From positions 57,966 to 121,965 of the forward strand of contig JACPNS010000008.1 in the NCBI GenBank assembly GCA_016185345.1: a DNA stretch of 64,000 nucleotides, written 5' to 3'. Numbering within the stretch: position 1 is the first letter of the stretch; each line of letters starts with the position of its first letter. This DNA comes from Solirubrobacterales bacterium. Lineage in GTDB: Bacteria > Actinomycetota > Thermoleophilia > Solirubrobacterales > JACPNS01. Positions 38,317-45,678 of the stretch are shown in pieces. The notes under the pieces were generated by a model. It was not told where the DNA came from. It was given only the letters and a program-made list of their open reading frames with translations, and made no database searches. Made by a program: the position numbers and the translations under genes.

Positions 38317-39885
38317 ATGGGAGCGGAGGAAGAGCAGGCAATCGCGGCGAGGAAACCGTCGCTGCTGCGCGCGGCGCTCGACGGCGAGCGGCGCTCGGGT
38401 TCCGCGATCATCGCTCGCGCTGCACCCGCGCTGACGATCGGCGTGATCGGGTCCAATCTAGTCGGAACGGTGATTCTGTTCGTGCTCGTGTCGTGGGTCA
38501 TTCCGGTGCCCGACCTCGACGACGACCAGAACGTCCGGCTCGTCAACCTGATCGTGCTCGCCGTCTATTTGTTGTTCGCCGTGACAAGCGGGATCGTCAA
38601 AACGATCCACGACATCAATCCAGTTCGGCGCTGGCTGTTTGAGGAACGCCCGCCAACGGCGGAGGAGCAGGCGCTGGCACTGCTCGGACCGTCGCGGCTT
38701 CTGAAGCGACTCTTGGTGCGCTGGGGCCTGGGCGTCGTGATCTTCACGATCTTGAATGCGGCGATCGAGCCGCGTCTCGCGTTGGTGGTCGCGATCGCCG
38801 GAATATTCAGCGGACTCGGCACCTGCGCGTTCTCATACCTGGTCGCCGAGCGCGCGATGCGCGAAGTGGCGCGTCGCGCTCTTGAGGACGGCCCGCGCGA
38901 GCACCCGGCCGTGCCGGGCGTGACGGCGCGCGTGATGTGGGCGTGGGCAATCAGTACCGGCACGCCGGTTCTGGGAGTCGTGCTGATCGCGGCGGGCGTC
39001 ACGACGGGAGTTCTGCCGAACAACTCGCAACAGCTGCTCTGGTCCACGATGATCATCTGCGGCGTTGCGCTGTTCATCGGGGTGCAGGCGATGTGGCTCG
39101 TCTCGCGCTCTATCTCCGATCCGATCAAGTCGGTTCGTCGCGGGATCGATCGCGTCGCCGCTGGCGATCTCTCGGTCGAGGTGCCGGTCTTTGACGCGTC
39201 CGAAGTTGGATTGCTGCAGAGTGGCTTCAACGACATGGTCGCCGGACTGTGCGAACGCGAACGCGTGCGCGATCTGTTTGGTCGGCACGTCGGCGAAGAC
39301 GTCGCCGAACAGGCCCTGCTCGTCGGTGCCGAACTAGGCGGCGAAGTGCGCGAGGTGGCCGTGATCTTTGTGGACGTGGTCGGATCGACAGAGATGGCGG
39401 CGGCTCGGCCGGCGTCGGAGGTCGTCGAGGTCCTGAACCGATTCTTCGCCGAGGTGATCGAGGCAATCGACCGATTCGATGGCTCGGTGAACAAGTTCGA
39501 GGGCGACGCCGCGCTCTGCATCTTTGGCGCCCCGGTCGCGCGGGACGATCCGGCCGGCGATGCGCTTGCGGCGGCGCGGGCGATGGTCGAGGGCCTTCGG
39601 CGTGAGCTTCCCGAACTCGGGGTGGGCGTCGGCATCTCCTACGGACCGGTGGTCGCCGGAAACGTCGGATCCGCCGAGCGCCACGAGTACACCGTGATCG
39701 GCGACGCAGTCAACGAGGCCGCCCGCCTCACGGAAATCGCCAAGTCGATCGACGGCGGTGTAGTCGCCTCAGGCACAGTGCTCGACCAGGCCCGCGAGTC
39801 CGAAGCCCAGCATTGGCGCCGCGGCGAGTCGATCGTCCTACGTGGCCGCTCCGAGCCAACAGTGTTGGCAACACCCCATACCTAA
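38317..39885 (+). CDS. Membrane-bound class III adenylate/guanylate cyclase with HAMP domain
   Basis: 522 residues. About six TM helices lie in residues ~35-260, followed by a HAMP domain (SRSISDPIKSVRRGIDRVAAGDLSVEV) and a catalytic domain (~340-520). The latter has metal Asp residues in VIFVDVVGSTEM and FEGDAALCIFGAP, substrate-choosing Lys in NKFEGD with Asp in VIGDAVNEAAR, and the transition-state Asn/Arg in the same motif. This residue set favours ATP, so cAMP is the likely product. The layout resembles mycobacterial Rv1318c-type cyclases. The stop codon TAA is the first triplet of the conserved repeat that bounds the RAYT element. Confidence 0.92.
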   Translation: MGAEEEQAIAARKPSLLRAALDGERRSGSAIIARAAPALTIGVIGSNLVGTVILFVLVSWVIPVPDLDDDQNVRLVNLIVLAVYLLFAVTSGIVKTIHDINPVRRWLFEERPPTAEEQALALLGPSRLLKRLLVRWGLGVVIFTILNAAIEPRLALVVAIAGIFSGLGTCAFSYLVAERAMREVARRALEDGPREHPAVPGVTARVMWAWAISTGTPVLGVVLIAAGVTTGVLPNNSQQLLWSTMIICGVALFIGVQAMWLVSRSISDPIKSVRRGIDRVAAGDLSVEVPVFDASEVGLLQSGFNDMVAGLCERERVRDLFGRHVGEDVAEQALLVGAELGGEVREVAVIFVDVVGSTEMAAARPASEVVEVLNRFFAEVIEAIDRFDGSVNKFEGDAALCIFGAPVARDDPAGDALAAARAMVEGLRRELPELGVGVGISYGPVVAGNVGSAERHEYTVIGDAVNEAARLTEIAKSIDGGVVASGTVLDQARESEAQHWRRGESIVLRGRSEPTVLATPHT

Positions 39886-39943
39886 GCCACAAAGTCCTAC
39901 AAGGTTGCGACTTTGTCGTGCGACATAGGCGCAACCTTGTAGG
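39883..39943. repeat. REP-like palindromic repeat, left copy flanking the RAYT gene
   Basis: The 48-bp hairpin at 39896-39943 has 13-bp outer arms (CCTACAAGGTTGC with GCAACCTTGTAGG) and an inner stem TGTCG/CGACA. It is preceded by TAAGCCACAAAGT, also conserved in the right copy. Both copies lie in the same orientation. Conserved sequence starts exactly at the cyclase stop codon. Confidence 0.9.
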
Positions 39944-39966
39944 AGAAAAGCCCTTGTCTACGGGGA

Positions 39967-40674
39967 TTATTTGTTTGGTTGCGGCAGGATGTGGCTTCCT
40001 CTACCTCGTTTGATTGGGCGGCTGGGCGGTAGCGGATTCTTGGCTCGGTTTTCGATCTTGCGCGTTCTGATCTCCTCCCACTTCGTGAAGACGACCTGTT
40101 GATACGCGTCCTTCGAATCGAAGAGCCGAAGTCCAATCCCGCTTGCAAGCCAGTCGCTCTCGCGCATGCCCATGTATTCACGATGACTGCTGAACTCGTA
40201 GTTCGGACCAAGCACCTCATGGTTTGTATGGACGTACGAGATCAGGTGTCGGATGTCGTCGTGCCCGTCTGCGGCCCGCGCCGAGTATGGGGACTCAAAG
40301 ATCTGCGCACGTCGGCCGTGCGTCTCGTTGAAGTAGCGGCCGTACGAGGTGAGCACTGACTTCATCAGCGAGATCACGCCGCCCTCCGCTTTCTGAAAGA
40401 TCAAGAGATGGAAGTGGTTGTCCAGGATGCAGAAAGCGAGGAGCTCGACCTCGTCACGGAGCTTTCTGTACGGGCGATAGTTCGTGTCGAGGATTTTCCG
40501 CGGCGACAGATGTCGCTCGATCCGATCTAGAAACTCCCGCTTGTCCCGTCGCTCGGGGAAAACGTGCATATCGTCGATCGCGTGGCCCCAGACATGAACC
40601 ACCTGACCCACGAGGAATCGCGTCTCTTCCGGATGCAGATCACTGGCCCGCAAAGGCTTTCTAGTTCGTCCCAT
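39967..40674 (-). CDS. REP-associated tyrosine transposase (RAYT, Y1/HUH family)
   Basis: 235 residues. The Y1 domain has the metal-binding HUH triad as H87-F88-H89 in LDNHFHLLIFQ. The catalytic Tyr is probably Y111 or Y114 in TSYGRYFNETHGRRAQIF. VVHVWGHAIDDMHVFPERRDKREFLD is the typical opening of TnpA_REP proteins. Such enzymes cut single-stranded palindromic DNA. The gene lies between two 48-bp direct-orientation hairpin repeats 24 and 84 bp from its ends, so the unit 39883-40805 looks like a self-contained RAYT/REP element. It is intact, with no frameshift. Confidence 0.92.
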   Translation of the reverse strand: MGRTRKPLRASDLHPEETRFLVGQVVHVWGHAIDDMHVFPERRDKREFLDRIERHLSPRKILDTNYRPYRKLRDEVELLAFCILDNHFHLLIFQKAEGGVISLMKSVLTSYGRYFNETHGRRAQIFESPYSARAADGHDDIRHLISYVHTNHEVLGPNYEFSSHREYMGMRESDWLASGIGLRLFDSKDAYQQVVFTKWEEIRTRKIENRAKNPLPPSRPIKRGRGSHILPQPNK

Positions 40675-40744
40675 AACCAGTTAAGGCCCCAGCCAGAATT
40701 CTTTACCCCCCCATCAATAGAACTTTTCTGCCAAACCCGATGAG

Positions 40745-40805
40745 TAAGCCAGAAAGCCCTACAAGGTTGCGACCTTGTCGTACGACATAGAGGCAACCTT
40801 GTAGG
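40745..40805. repeat. REP-like palindromic repeat, right copy flanking the RAYT gene
   Basis: The hairpin at 40758-40805 has outer arms identical to the left copy and differs from it at only a few central bases. Its upstream 13 bases (TAAGCCAGAAAGC) differ at two positions. It lies 50 bp before the acyl-CoA dehydrogenase start and may sit inside that gene's promoter region. Confidence 0.9.
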
Positions 40806-40856
40806 AGGATGCCGCTTGATTGAGGGACATTCACCGATCGGTACATTGGATCGAAT

Positions 40857-42083
40857 ATGGTGCCCGGTATGGAAGCTTCAAGTACGCGCAGTGCATCTCG
40901 CCCTAAGGGCATGGCCAAGGACATCACCCCTCCGTACACGGAGGAGCTCGAGGAATTCAGGGACTCGGTTCATGGGTGGGTCACGACGAATCTGCTCCCC
41001 CACGCCGACGAGTGGGAAGACGCCAAGTACTTCCCCGACTCCGTCTTCAAGCAGGTCGCAAGCCAGGGCTACCTGGGGCTGAAATTTGAAGAGGAGTACG
41101 GCGGATCGTGCACCGGCGGCCCGGACAACGCATCCGACGGCTACCTCGCGGACTCGATTCTGCTTGAGGAGCTCCCGGCCTGCGGAAGCGGCGGAGTTGC
41201 GGCCGGACTCTGGGCCCACGCCGGAATCGCGCTGACGCCGATCTGGAAGTTCGGCACGCCCGAGCAGAAGGCCAAATACCTCGCCCCCGGGATCACAGGC
41301 GACAAGATCGCGGCGCTCGCAATCACCGAGCCTGGCGCGGGCAGCGACGTCGCTGGCATCACGACCAAGGCCGAAAAAGTGGACGGCGGCTACGTCCTGA
41401 ACGGTTCGAAGGTCTTCATCACGAACGGCATCCGCGCGCACACGATCGTCACCGCCGCAAAGACGACTCAAGAGGGCGGCCACAAGGGCATGAGCTTCTT
41501 CATCGTCGAACGCGGCGAGGGCATCACTTCATCGCCGCTCGAAAAGCTCGGATGGCACGCGTCTGACACCGCCGAGATTTCTTATGAAGACGTCTTCGTC
41601 CCCGAGGAGAACCTGCTCGGCACCGAGAACGAGGGCTTCTACATGATCATGGCAAACTTCCAGTGGGAGCGGCTGATGATGGCTTTGGGCGCGGTCGGCG
41701 CGATGAAGCTCGTCTACCAACAGACGATCGACTACGCGCACGAGCGCAACGCCTTCGGTCGCCCGATCAGCAACTTCCAGGTGATCCGCCACAAGTTCGC
41801 CGACATGGCAACGCAGATCGAGGCCGCGCGCGCGATCACCTACAACGCGCTGCGCCTCTTCATCGAGGGCAAGCAGCCGCTCAGCGAAGTGACAATGGCC
41901 AAGCTCTTCACGCAGTCGCTGCTCGTCAAGATCTGCGACGAATGCCTGCAGATCCACGGCGGCTGGGGCTACATGAAGGAATACAAAATCGAACGAGCCC
42001 TGCGCGACGCCCGCCTCGGCCCGATCGGCGGCGGCACCGACGAGATCATGAAAGAAATCCTCGGCAAGAGCCTCGGGATCTAG
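40857..42083 (+). CDS. Acyl-CoA dehydrogenase
   Basis: 408 residues (in-frame ATGs at 40869 and 40911 are alternatives). FAD enzyme that makes the alpha-beta double bond of acyl-CoA. Signatures are ALAITEPGAGSDVAGI (FAD and substrate contact), IHGGWGYMKEYKIERALRDARLGPIGGGTDEI near the C-terminus, and WERLMMALGAVG. The catalytic Glu is probably in this WERL helix, as in isovaleryl- and long-chain-type ACADs, since the C-terminal position usual in medium-chain enzymes reads GGGTDE. Likely feeds beta-oxidation. Its 3' end overlaps the convergent HTH gene by 4 bp. Confidence 0.93.
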   Translation: MVPGMEASSTRSASRPKGMAKDITPPYTEELEEFRDSVHGWVTTNLLPHADEWEDAKYFPDSVFKQVASQGYLGLKFEEEYGGSCTGGPDNASDGYLADSILLEELPACGSGGVAAGLWAHAGIALTPIWKFGTPEQKAKYLAPGITGDKIAALAITEPGAGSDVAGITTKAEKVDGGYVLNGSKVFITNGIRAHTIVTAAKTTQEGGHKGMSFFIVERGEGITSSPLEKLGWHASDTAEISYEDVFVPEENLLGTENEGFYMIMANFQWERLMMALGAVGAMKLVYQQTIDYAHERNAFGRPISNFQVIRHKFADMATQIEAARAITYNALRLFIEGKQPLSEVTMAKLFTQSLLVKICDECLQIHGGWGYMKEYKIERALRDARLGPIGGGTDEIMKEILGKSLGI

Positions 42084-42783: not shown

Positions 42784-45678
42784 TTAGTGACGGATCGAAG
42801 CGGTTAGATTGCTGCTGCTGACCGTCGGGAGCACGCTCAGGACCGAGCTCGACTTCAAACTCAACTGGATCGTGTGACCGGCGGCCGCCGAGAGCGTCAG
42901 GTTGGTCTTCGTTGCGTCGAGATTCGTGCGAAAGATCCCGAAGAGATCGAACAACACGGTCGCGCTGTCGCTGGCGACGGGGCTGCCATCGACGATGATG
43001 CTCATCGTGTATGTGCTGCCGAAGCCGACGGTGCTCGCGAGGCCGTTGATCTGAGCTGCGAGGTCAACCGTGTAGTTGCCGGTGAGGCCGTTCGGGTTGG
43101 CCGGGATGTCGATCGTCAGCGTAGTGTCCGGGCAACCGAGCAGCGAGTTCAGGCTGGCGTTGCCGGTGCAGAGGATGCCCCACTGGAACCCGCCGGTCTT
43201 GGACATAGTGACCGGGTCCTTGAAAACGCCGAAGGGCTTGACGACCGGAGCCGTCGCGTTGCCTGCTGCGTCGGTGCCGATGCAGGTGAAGGTGTGGCTG
43301 CCGTTGCTGAGCACCGCCGTGGTGTACGGCGAAGTAACTGATGCGTAGGAGCCAGCGTCGACCTTGCACTGGAATGTCGTGCCGGCTTCGTTGGAACTGA
43401 ACGTGAAGTCGTGCTTGCCGTCCCAGCGCGGTGCGCCGTCGGTGATCGTGATCGTTGGGACAGTCGTGTCGACCGTGATCGACTTGGTGACTTCGGCCGT
43501 CGCGTTGCCGGCAGTGTCGATTGCGCGGCATGTGACGGTGTGAGCACCTTCGCTCAGAACCGCAGTGGTGAATGGGCCGACGACCGTGACCCAGGCGCCG
43601 CCGTCGACCTTGCACTGAAGGTTTCCGCCGCTTCCGCCGCCCAACGTGTAGGTCGGAGTATTGTCGTTGATCAGACCGCTCGGACCGGTGACCGTGACTG
43701 CACTCGGCGCCGTCGTGTCAATCACAACCGAGTAGGCGTTGTCCGGGCCCTTGACTCCTGTGGCAGAGACGTAGCGGCAGGTGATGGTGTGCGAGCCGTC
43801 GGCGAGCGCCGCCAGCGTCCACGGTGATGTGACCGTGGTGAAAGAGCCATTGTCGACCTTGCACTCGATATAGCCGCCAGTGGCAGAGGTAATGAGAGTG
43901 AAGGTCGGCGTGTTGTCGTTGGTGTTTGACGGGCCGGTTATCGTGACCGTGCCCGGAGCGGCAGAGTTGATCGTGACGTTGGCCGAGGAGTTCGGACCGA
44001 CGTTGCCAGCTGTATCGACGCGGCGGCAGGTCACTGAGTGCACGCCATCGGTGAGGGCGGCCGTCGTGTAGGTCGAGCCGGTTGCGGCAAACGTTCCGCT
44101 GTCGGTCTTGCACTCGTAGGTGTCGCCCTGGAGCGCACCGCTGAGGTTGAATGACGGCGTCGTGTCGCTGGTCGCGCTGCTCGGACCGCTGATCGTGACT
44201 GCGCCCGGCGGCGTCGTGTCGACAACGAGCGTGAACTCGGCGACCGGGCTCAAGTTTCCAGCGTCGTCCTGCTGGCGGCACTGGATCAAGTGGGTGCCGT
44301 CCCCAAGAGCTTCGGTGGTCAGCGGGCTGGAGATGTTCCAGGCCTGAAGACCGTCGACGGCGCAGCCGAGGCTTCCGCCGGGCTCTGACCTAGTGACCGT
44401 GAAGGTCGGCGTGTTGTCTTTGCTCGGGCTGGCCGGACCGCTGAGCGCGGGCGCGCCAGGCGAAGTGCGATCGATCGTCAGCGTGTACGTCGTCTCGGGG
44501 CCAACGTTGCCGGCGCCGTCGACGTAACGGCAGGTGATCGTGTAGGTGCCCTCGGGGAGGACCGGGAGGACCCAGTTCGCATCCACTGTGGTGAAGTTCA
44601 CGAACGGTCCGTTGTAGCCGCCGCCGGAGATCTTGCACTCGGTGAAGCCGCCGCTCTCGCCCGCAGGCGGGGTGACGTCAACCGTCGGCGTCTCGCCGTT
44701 GCTTGAACCGTTGTTGCTCCCCGGGACCGTGATGGTCGGGCCGCTGGTCGGGGCCGTCGAGTCGACCGTGACCGTGACGGTCGTCGGGTCGCCCGCGTTG
44801 CCGGCGCCGTCGACGTAACGGCAGGTGATCGTGTGCGAGCCATCGGAAAGCGTCGGCGTGGTCCAGGTCGAAGTGACCGTGACGTACGCGCCGTCGTCGA
44901 TCTTGCACTCGATGCGACCGTCGGTCTCGCCGGCCGGCGGCGTGATCAGGAAGGTCGGCGTGTTGTCGTTCGTGGTGCTCGGGCCGGTGATCGTCACGAC
45001 GCCGGGAGCGGTCGTGTCGGCGCCGTTGCTGCCGTTGCCGCCGTTGCCGGATCCGCCGTTGCCGCCGTTGCCGCCGTTCCCGTTCTTGTCACATGCCTTC
45101 GTGAAGGTGGCGTTCCCGGCCTTGATCTGATTCCCGAGATTCTTCAGGCGCTTGCGCAGAACCTTCTTGCGGTTCTTGGCTTTCTTCGAGTTGCCCTTGA
45201 CCTTGCGCAGCTGCATCTTGCGCTCGTACTGAAGGTTGATCAGTGAGTCGAGCTTGGAGAAAGTGATTGAGCACTCAGCACTGAGTGCCGAGGTGGTGCC
45301 AACGCCCTGGCACAGAGTCTTCAGTGAAGCGCGCGCCGAGTTGACCTTCTTGTCGGCCTTCTTGACCGACTTCTTGGCGGCCTTCCTGGCCTTTGACGTC
45401 GTGGCGGTCTTCAGCCTGTAGCGCGGCACGGCGCGTGCGGCGAGCGCTGCGTTGACTGCTGTGACTGCCTGACCGCAGTTCTGCGGCGCTTTGACCATCG
45501 CGGTCTTCTTCTTGGCTTTGGCTGCTTCAGCAGAGGCCGCACTTGCCGTGTCGCTGAATGCGGCGATCTGCAGAAGGGCAGCGGCGGCCAACACCAGGGC
45601 GGCAATTGAGATCTTTGAAATCGTAAGAATCGTGCGGCTCCCGGCGGCACGGTACTTGAATACGAAATTCACTTGCAA
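42784..45678 (-). CDS. Large secreted protein with seven Ig-like repeats
   Basis: About 964 residues. N-terminus: basic leader and hydrophobic segment (ISIAALVLAAAALLQIAAF, ~23-42) with AxA-like cleavage near TASAA. A Lys/Ala-rich helical region (~50-200) follows with four Cys and long basic stretches. Then comes a Gly/Asn linker (GGNGGNGGSGNGGNGSN) and seven repeats of ~85-90 residues. Each repeat opens with a TITGPS/TNDNTPTF-type strand and has a Cys in CKVD/ECK and a second in ITCRYVD, suggesting one disulfide per repeat. The C-terminal ~130 residues form a distinct domain ending SIRH. No LPXTG or TM anchor is seen. The start is TTG 45678 or GTG 45672 behind AAAGGA. Likely a cell-surface or matrix structural protein. 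Confidence 0.88.
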   Translation of the reverse strand: MQVNFVFKYRAAGSRTILTISKISIAALVLAAAALLQIAAFSDTASAASAEAAKAKKKTAMVKAPQNCGQAVTAVNAALAARAVPRYRLKTATTSKARKAAKKSVKKADKKVNSARASLKTLCQGVGTTSALSAECSITFSKLDSLINLQYERKMQLRKVKGNSKKAKNRKKVLRKRLKNLGNQIKAGNATFTKACDKNGNGGNGGNGGSGNGGNGSNGADTTAPGVVTITGPSTTNDNTPTFLITPPAGETDGRIECKIDDGAYVTVTSTWTTPTLSDGSHTITCRYVDGAGNAGDPTTVTVTVDSTAPTSGPTITVPGSNNGSSNGETPTVDVTPPAGESGGFTECKISGGGYNGPFVNFTTVDANWVLPVLPEGTYTITCRYVDGAGNVGPETTYTLTIDRTSPGAPALSGPASPSKDNTPTFTVTRSEPGGSLGCAVDGLQAWNISSPLTTEALGDGTHLIQCRQQDDAGNLSPVAEFTLVVDTTPPGAVTISGPSSATSDTTPSFNLSGALQGDTYECKTDSGTFAATGSTYTTAALTDGVHSVTCRRVDTAGNVGPNSSANVTINSAAPGTVTITGPSNTNDNTPTFTLITSATGGYIECKVDNGSFTTVTSPWTLAALADGSHTITCRYVSATGVKGPDNAYSVVIDTTAPSAVTVTGPSGLINDNTPTYTLGGGSGGNLQCKVDGGAWVTVVGPFTTAVLSEGAHTVTCRAIDTAGNATAEVTKSITVDTTVPTITITDGAPRWDGKHDFTFSSNEAGTTFQCKVDAGSYASVTSPYTTAVLSNGSHTFTCIGTDAAGNATAPVVKPFGVFKDPVTMSKTGGFQWGILCTGNASLNSLLGCPDTTLTIDIPANPNGLTGNYTVDLAAQINGLASTVGFGSTYTMSIIVDGSPVASDSATVLFDLFGIFRTNLDATKTNLTLSAAAGHTIQLSLKSSSVLSVLPTVSSSNLTASIRH

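Follow-up and report, generated by a model that had tools for sequence, protein, structure and literature searches.

RAYT-like transposase genes and their matching palindromic repeats in a genus of Solirubrobacterales

A stretch of 64,000 nucleotides from an uncultured Solirubrobacterales bacterium (GTDB lineage Actinomycetota; Thermoleophilia; Solirubrobacterales; JACPNS01; GenBank assembly GCA_016185345.1, contig JACPNS010000008.1, positions 57,966 to 121,965 of the forward strand; the whole stretch is hereafter the window) carries a Y1/HUH transposase gene enclosed by two palindromes of 48 nucleotides. We consider it highly probable that gene and palindromes form a unit like the REPtrons, in which a gene of the RAYT type (REP-associated tyrosine transposase; REP, repetitive extragenic palindrome) lies between repeats, and the enzyme recognizes its own repeat in the folded state, copying or relocating it to new sites adjacent to stop codons. 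The original prediction, made from the window sequence, had proposed a RAYT/REP system, and this reading is upheld by the top fold match of the transposase, by further copies of the repeat in the genome and by a genus-wide matching of transposase genes and repeats.

An intact transposase gene between two direct palindromes

As had been predicted, the gene is intact and lies between two palindromes in direct orientation (Table 1): the reading frame, on the minus strand, is open, and its HUH motif reads NHFH (H87 and H89). H87, H89, Q94 and Y147 are invariant in all 15 aligned sequences from the genus, and Y147 is the putative catalytic residue, as its position within the Y motif suggests. This motif is Y---NH in the window gene and Y...N[H/D] in 14 of the 15 genus sequences, the remaining one having QD. 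The protein scores 23.5 bits against the Pfam family Y1_Tnp, barely above the cut-off of 23, and a database protein 67% identical to it is labeled as coming from a Thermoleophilaceae bacterium. A sequence-profile search against the PDB returned three matches with E values of 0.5-0.7, no transposase among them, and a PHROGs search gave no match. An AlphaFold model was built from the 15 genus sequences (pLDDT 87.4). In a fold search with this model, the top match, and the sole one with E <= 0.001, was 4er8, the E. coli TnpA-REP with a REP hairpin (E 1.3e-5).

The transposases of IS608 and ISDra2 rank next in the fold search, and the gene is enclosed by two hairpins, both of which would suit an ordinary insertion sequence of the IS200/IS605 type, whose gene and two hairpin ends move as one. 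This explanation is very unlikely. Members of that group (subclass 1.1) have a Y---Q motif and about 152 aa (PMC6006769; for this paper as for PMC3733652 and PMC3686654, our statements apply to parts of the text), whereas the window gene has Y...NH and 235 codons. The same palindrome stands at both ends instead of distinct left and right ends, and solo hairpins outnumber the gene. Moreover, the gene is single: the four other genes of its type in the genome are 34-44% identical to it over the matched part, with no near-identical copies.

Left and right repeats share 81% identity over 89 nucleotides, and the left-right flank score of the locus is 97, whereas 50 shuffles reached 25 at most. The 13 nucleotides preceding each palindrome (39883-39895 and 40745-40757), which the prediction had called conserved, are indeed similar between the two copies. 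We set the ends of the repeat unit at -19 and +19 from the palindrome, which is a convention and not an experimental map. Folded as single-stranded DNA, the 86-nucleotide units reach the energies given in Table 1, against shuffle means of -7.7 (left) and -6.6 kcal/mol (right); the z-scores are -7.0 and -5.3, and none of 200 shuffles folds equally well. In a REPIN, made of two inverted REPs, each half forms a hairpin by itself; for the window repeat the lowest-energy fold is a single long hairpin, and by eye the halves (ACAAGG/CCTTGT) are also able to fold.

Table 1. Features of the transposase unit and its neighbors, in window coordinates
Feature	Coordinates	Strand	Basis or remark
HAMP + adenylate/guanylate cyclase domain gene (left neighbor)	38317..39885	plus	ORF (open reading frame) + Pfam
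Left repeat unit with outer ends	39877..39962		AAGC tag from 39884, 12 nt before palindrome
Cyclase stop codon TAA	39883..39885	plus	at -13, in end of left repeat unit
Left palindrome (core), 48 nt	39896..39943		unit fold -22.2 kcal/mol
RAYT-like Y1/HUH transposase gene, 235 aa	39967..40674	minus	open ORF, Pfam match, AlphaFold model
Leader motif ahead of transposase gene: GGGGTAA, TTAAC 26 nt on	40679..40712	minus	common to genus relatives
Right repeat unit with outer ends	40739..40824		AAGC tag from 40746
Right palindrome (core), 48 nt, direct orientation to left	40758..40805		unit fold -16.6 kcal/mol
Acyl-CoA dehydrogenase (ACAD) gene (right neighbor)	40857..42083	plus	ORF + Pfam

Copies of the repeat and related genes in the genus

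The window genome (G000; 2.43 Mb, 22 contigs) was compared with four congeners (G001 to G004), the five being all that the search found for the family to which the genus belongs. A genome search for further hairpins, as the prediction had suggested, found the window repeat without a gene at four other places in G000, three of them near-full (C13:97413, C5:186229 and C21:234546) and one a half copy (C13:76656). Among the congeners it occurs in G003 alone, at a single place. Apart from the window gene, this repeat family (F019) has six sites in G000 and the congeners together, and five of these belong to G000 or to the orthologous junction of G003. One more candidate, L013 (C21:116357), a match of 20 nucleotides, was not counted as a copy.

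Related genes are present in all five genomes, numbering 5 in G000, 4 in G001, 3 in G002, 12 in G003 and 6 in G004. Across the order, a match at E <= 1e-8 was found in 5 of 201 genomes, drawn from a larger group; all five belong to this genus, 1 of the 51 genera covered, and the other 196 genomes gave no related gene. A tree was built from 71 selected rows, comprising 19 of the 30 genus loci, 45 of 79 loci from outside the genus and 7 of 29 database proteins. The 19 genus rows cluster with 5 metagenome rows in a single group (98/90). The next row outside it, on a long branch, is from Ilumatobacter, which is also an actinobacterium; such genes are therefore not restricted to this genus.

Repeat families follow their matching transposase genes

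Thirteen other flank repeats from the genus were searched as one joined query in the five genomes, separately from F019; the resulting counts are lower bounds. Among the matches listed, 90 of the 91 rows of the 13 families sit in a genome with the matching gene, and the one row outside this pattern is a weak match of F038 in G003. With own flanks included, the families have at least 20 (F036), 19 (F027), 10 (F034), 8 (F022, some overlapping), 6 (F021, F023 and F029), 4 (F040), 3 (F038, F026 and F020), 2 (F025) and 1 (F024) rows. One G000 place counted as F034 also matched the F023 query, and the genes of these two families are orthologs.

The identity of the transposases and the similarity of the cores are weakly correlated over nine families (rho 0.38, permutation p 0.026). 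Several pairs of cores from different families are closer to each other than random palindromes are (F019-F029, p 0.007), so these cores may be distant relatives. The orthologous loci L034 (G000) and L023 (G003) have genes 82% identical within 3.5 kb of synteny, also at 82%. Between their repeats (10 and 6 copies), five hairpin pairs are changed on both sides, in 22 cells. None of 500 shuffles reached this number of cells and 27 reached the number of pairs, slid controls gave 0-2 cells, and kinship of the copies inflates such tests of co-change.

An outer AAGC tag and stop codons at the repeat ends

To the outside of the palindromes, eight families were aligned over 113 repeat sides (F022, F024, F025, F036, F038 and F040 were left out). 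AAGC stands exactly 12 nucleotides outside the palindrome in 50 of the 113 sides and 10 nucleotides outside in nine, compared with 0-2 times per position elsewhere between -40 and -4; C is found at -19 in 72% of the sides. The AAGC tag is a feature common to families with differing cores, and it is a candidate counterpart of the GTAG of known REPs.

Of 117 sides, 53 have a likely gene directed toward the repeat. The stop codon of this inward gene is at -13 in nine cases, at -17 in eight and at -20 in five (22 of 53 inside the tagged end); these counts are not all independent, as four orthologous pairs (window/L049, L002/L215, L003/L216 and L034/L023) enter twice, the -20 cases include two stops of the RAYT genes themselves, and one -17 case is a 210-nucleotide ORF that is perhaps no gene. 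At the window cyclase, the repeat end reads CAT ACC TAA GCC, and the repeated stretch opens with TAA (39883-39885), the cyclase stop, as had been predicted. The original prediction had left two possibilities, that the element landed at this stop or that it supplies it; TAA turns out to be part of the end of the repeat itself in the window and in G003, and likewise at other copies. A gene would tolerate a copy that inserts into its final codons, because stop codons are present in the repeat end.

The closeness of copies to stop codons, and the run of T that follows some of them on one strand (e.g., L002), could also mean that the palindromes are gene-end elements of the host (terminators or RNA structures at 3' ends, for example), with a transposase gene between two of them by chance. 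We find this hard to accept. The repeat families occur where the matching transposase gene occurs, and a left-right repeat pair flanks 13 of the 30 genus loci (scores >=44; shuffle maxima 22-31). Furthermore, an Rfam search of 39700-41000 gave no match at E <= 1, and a terminator scan of the same region gave a single site (shuffle mean 1.0), which lies outside the palindromes.

The cyclase-ACAD junction and orthologous sites in relatives

Comparison of the junction in close relatives had been proposed as a check, and the junction is not the same in all of them. In G003, the cyclase is followed by a single hairpin and ACAD with no transposase gene between, whereas in G004 and G001 the cyclase stop (TAG and TGA, respectively) is followed by the ACAD leader with neither hairpin nor gene. 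The stop in G004 is at the same alignment position as that in the window. The search gave no clear cyclase-ACAD junction in G002. At the 11 positions that differ between the two window copies, the G003 hairpin agrees with the left copy at two, all left of the center, with the right copy at six, all right of the center, and with neither at three. The closest G003 gene is 39% identical to the window gene (G003 being 82% complete). Two histories fit the G003 junction equally: the gene was deleted when its flanking hairpins recombined, or gene and hairpin were gained together at a hairpin already present. We tentatively favor loss.

The G003 hairpin could be taken further, to the view that solo hairpins in general are scars, left when a whole unit inserts and recombination between its direct hairpins deletes the gene, like solo long terminal repeats. 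Another site is in line with this, as G003 has a solo hairpin of family F023 (L212) where G000 has a RAYT gene of family F024 with its repeat (L024), the left homology reaching the core. As a general account it is nevertheless improbable. Families with a single known gene have up to 20 rows listed, and equally many gene insertions and losses would be needed; at L211, G000 lacks about 93 nucleotides, the size of one unit.

We sought 12 solo sites of G000 in the relatives and found at least one match for 11 of them, none for L207. At three sites G003 has a core of another family (L002/L215, L003/L216 and L203/L217). It has a decayed unit with tags at L006/L243, other hairpins at L204 and L205, and no unit at L009, L208, L209 and L202 (the last aligned on one side only); the L206 and L207 places were not found in G003. 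Among the relatives that are more distant, G001, G002 and G004, the majority of the sites are without a unit or have other hairpins. The places of L211 and L029 are reused by F027 units in G004, at a different nucleotide. As a separate observation, four different hairpins occupy one intergenic site (L204, L233, L224 and L225) in G000, G003, G001 and G004, respectively.

When the 20-nucleotide flanks on each side are compared with the core (gapped), 35 of 40 positions against 30 of 50 are identical at L002, and 30 of 40 against 31 of 50 at L003. The corresponding numbers at L203/L217 are 22 of 40 and 32 of 49, and this site is a weak case of core exchange because its flanks are no better conserved than its core. 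The differing cores at orthologous sites possibly reflect exchange in place, divergence with homogenization, or repeated insertion at the same nucleotide. Tentatively, the four sites at which two species have cores of different families (the three above and L212/L024) raise the prospect, which we think doubtful, that the units are fixed slots at gene ends, in which the tags persist and the core is rewritten to match the transposase that is retained, the transposase then being a homing-like editor of cores.

Other features around the unit

GGGGTA[A/G] precedes 11 of the 15 aligned RAYT-like genes of the genus, and 10 of these also have TTAA[C/G] 26-27 nucleotides on; this leader could serve the transposase genes as a promoter. 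About 50 nucleotides separate the end of the right palindrome from the first ATG of the ACAD ORF, and this copy had been placed in the ACAD promoter. Between palindrome and gene, TTCACCGATCGGTACA at 40830-40845 is conserved in G003, which has the hairpin, and in G004, which has none. Because this sequence is kept with and without the hairpin, the right copy lies beside the likely promoter instead of inside it. The sequence resembles an operator, and G001 has TAGACAGACTGTCTA in its place. Near the unit, a 964-aa ORF on the minus strand (42784-45678) with many repeats of the DTTAPGAVTISGPS...TFTCRATDAAGN type is likely to encode a surface protein.

Discussion

The unit resembles REPtrons (RAYT/TnpA-REP, TnpAY1 class 2; PMC6006769) in its Y1/HUH enzyme with a TnpA-REP-like fold, its low-copy and diverged genes, its flanking hairpins with dispersed copies and its one repeat family per gene. 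It differs in having AAGC 12 nucleotides out instead of GT[AG]G at the hairpin foot, Y...N[H/D] instead of Y...NP, and palindromes of about 48 nucleotides in few copies. Similarly, the TIRtrons, whose TIRYT genes (Di Nocera 2013, PMC3733652) are probably subclass 2.1 of PMC6006769, have RAYT-like genes of similar length and long flanking repeats unrelated to GTAG REPs, some of them self-complementary and some dispersed. However, GGGGWSAS, found in many TIRtron repeats though not in all, is absent from both window repeat units, and a text search of PMC3733652 gave no mention of Actinobacteria. GTAG REP ends that supply stop codons to neighboring ORFs have been described (PMC3733652), and here too the repeat end is the stop codon of the neighbor gene; the stop is TAG from GTAG there, and TAA, TGA or TAG at -13, -17 and -20 here. 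The orthologous L034 and L023, with different flanking and dispersed repeat classes, recall the REP orthoswitch of Pseudomonas and Stenotrophomonas (Nunvar 2013, PMC3686654). In that case old REPs are said to remain and decay, whereas in this genus units of different families are found at some orthologous sites.

Outside the genus, we scanned 80 loci among the matches listed (L052-L130, Patescibacteria and others), 75 of them with both flanks. Repeat pairs are direct in 31 and inverted in 24 of the 75, the two sets overlapping and a few of the repeats not being palindromes, and Y...NP is present in 66 of 79 genes. Some of the hairpins are of the type ACAAGG...CCTTGT, as in half of the window palindrome; most of the loci have shorter, single hairpins. 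An Ilumatobacter gene of the same group (L073) has YVHRNP and the palindrome TCACGTTGTGTCAGACACAACGTGA on both flanks. Paired palindromes are thus more widespread in this transposase group, despite the 2018 survey, which in the part considered here reports no REP-like sequences adjoining its subclass 2.1 and assigns Actinobacteridae only IS200-type genes (PMC6006769). The prediction had regarded RAYTs as mostly proteobacterial; by the same survey, genes of the RAYT type are less confined to proteobacteria than that.

Under the REPtron-like reading that we prefer, the enzyme would bind its own repeat in folded, single-stranded form, guided by the AAGC tag, and Y147 would nick single-stranded DNA near the tag. 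Copies would be passed to single-stranded DNA targets, such as the replication fork, and would survive mainly at gene ends; recombination of one direct hairpin with the other could remove the gene, so that a single hairpin remains, as in G003. The mobility of the unit is what we infer from these comparisons.

Several results weigh against this reading. The window protein is far below the cut-off of the NCBIfam family REP_Tyr_transpos (29.5 bits, cut-off 80), the Y---NP motif of RAYTs is not present in the window gene, and GT[AG]G occurs at the hairpin foot in none of the 113 repeat sides. Copy numbers are low, with at most 20 rows a family among the matches listed, and 17 of the 30 genus loci are without a paired flank, some of them with a one-sided palindrome. 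AAGC is at neither -12 nor -10 in 54 of the 113 sides, and in F027 it is at -12 in just 12 of 38. Covariation in F027 (15 of 19 rows) supported neither the long-hairpin nor the double-hairpin form. Among the genomes compared there was no near-identical strain pair differing by a copy, so movement was not observed, and absences are weak evidence because all genus genomes are incomplete (82-97%).

Stop codons borne by REPs and REP switching are already known; the actinobacterial radiation, the AAGC tag and the possible exchange of cores in place look new. Among the open-access papers listed, we found nothing on a REP-associated tyrosine transposase in Actinobacteria or on REP elements in Thermoleophilia, and a REP-type system is now placed in Actinomycetota. 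How REPs spread and how old REP classes are replaced by new ones are unsolved problems, and the authors of the 2013 comparison considered the mechanism of the REP switch open only to speculation (PMC3686654). Both questions can be tested in this genus because it has many RAYT-like genes with repeats of their own, low copy numbers and varied orthologous sites. In this genus, each enzyme probably carries copies of its own repeat to gene ends.

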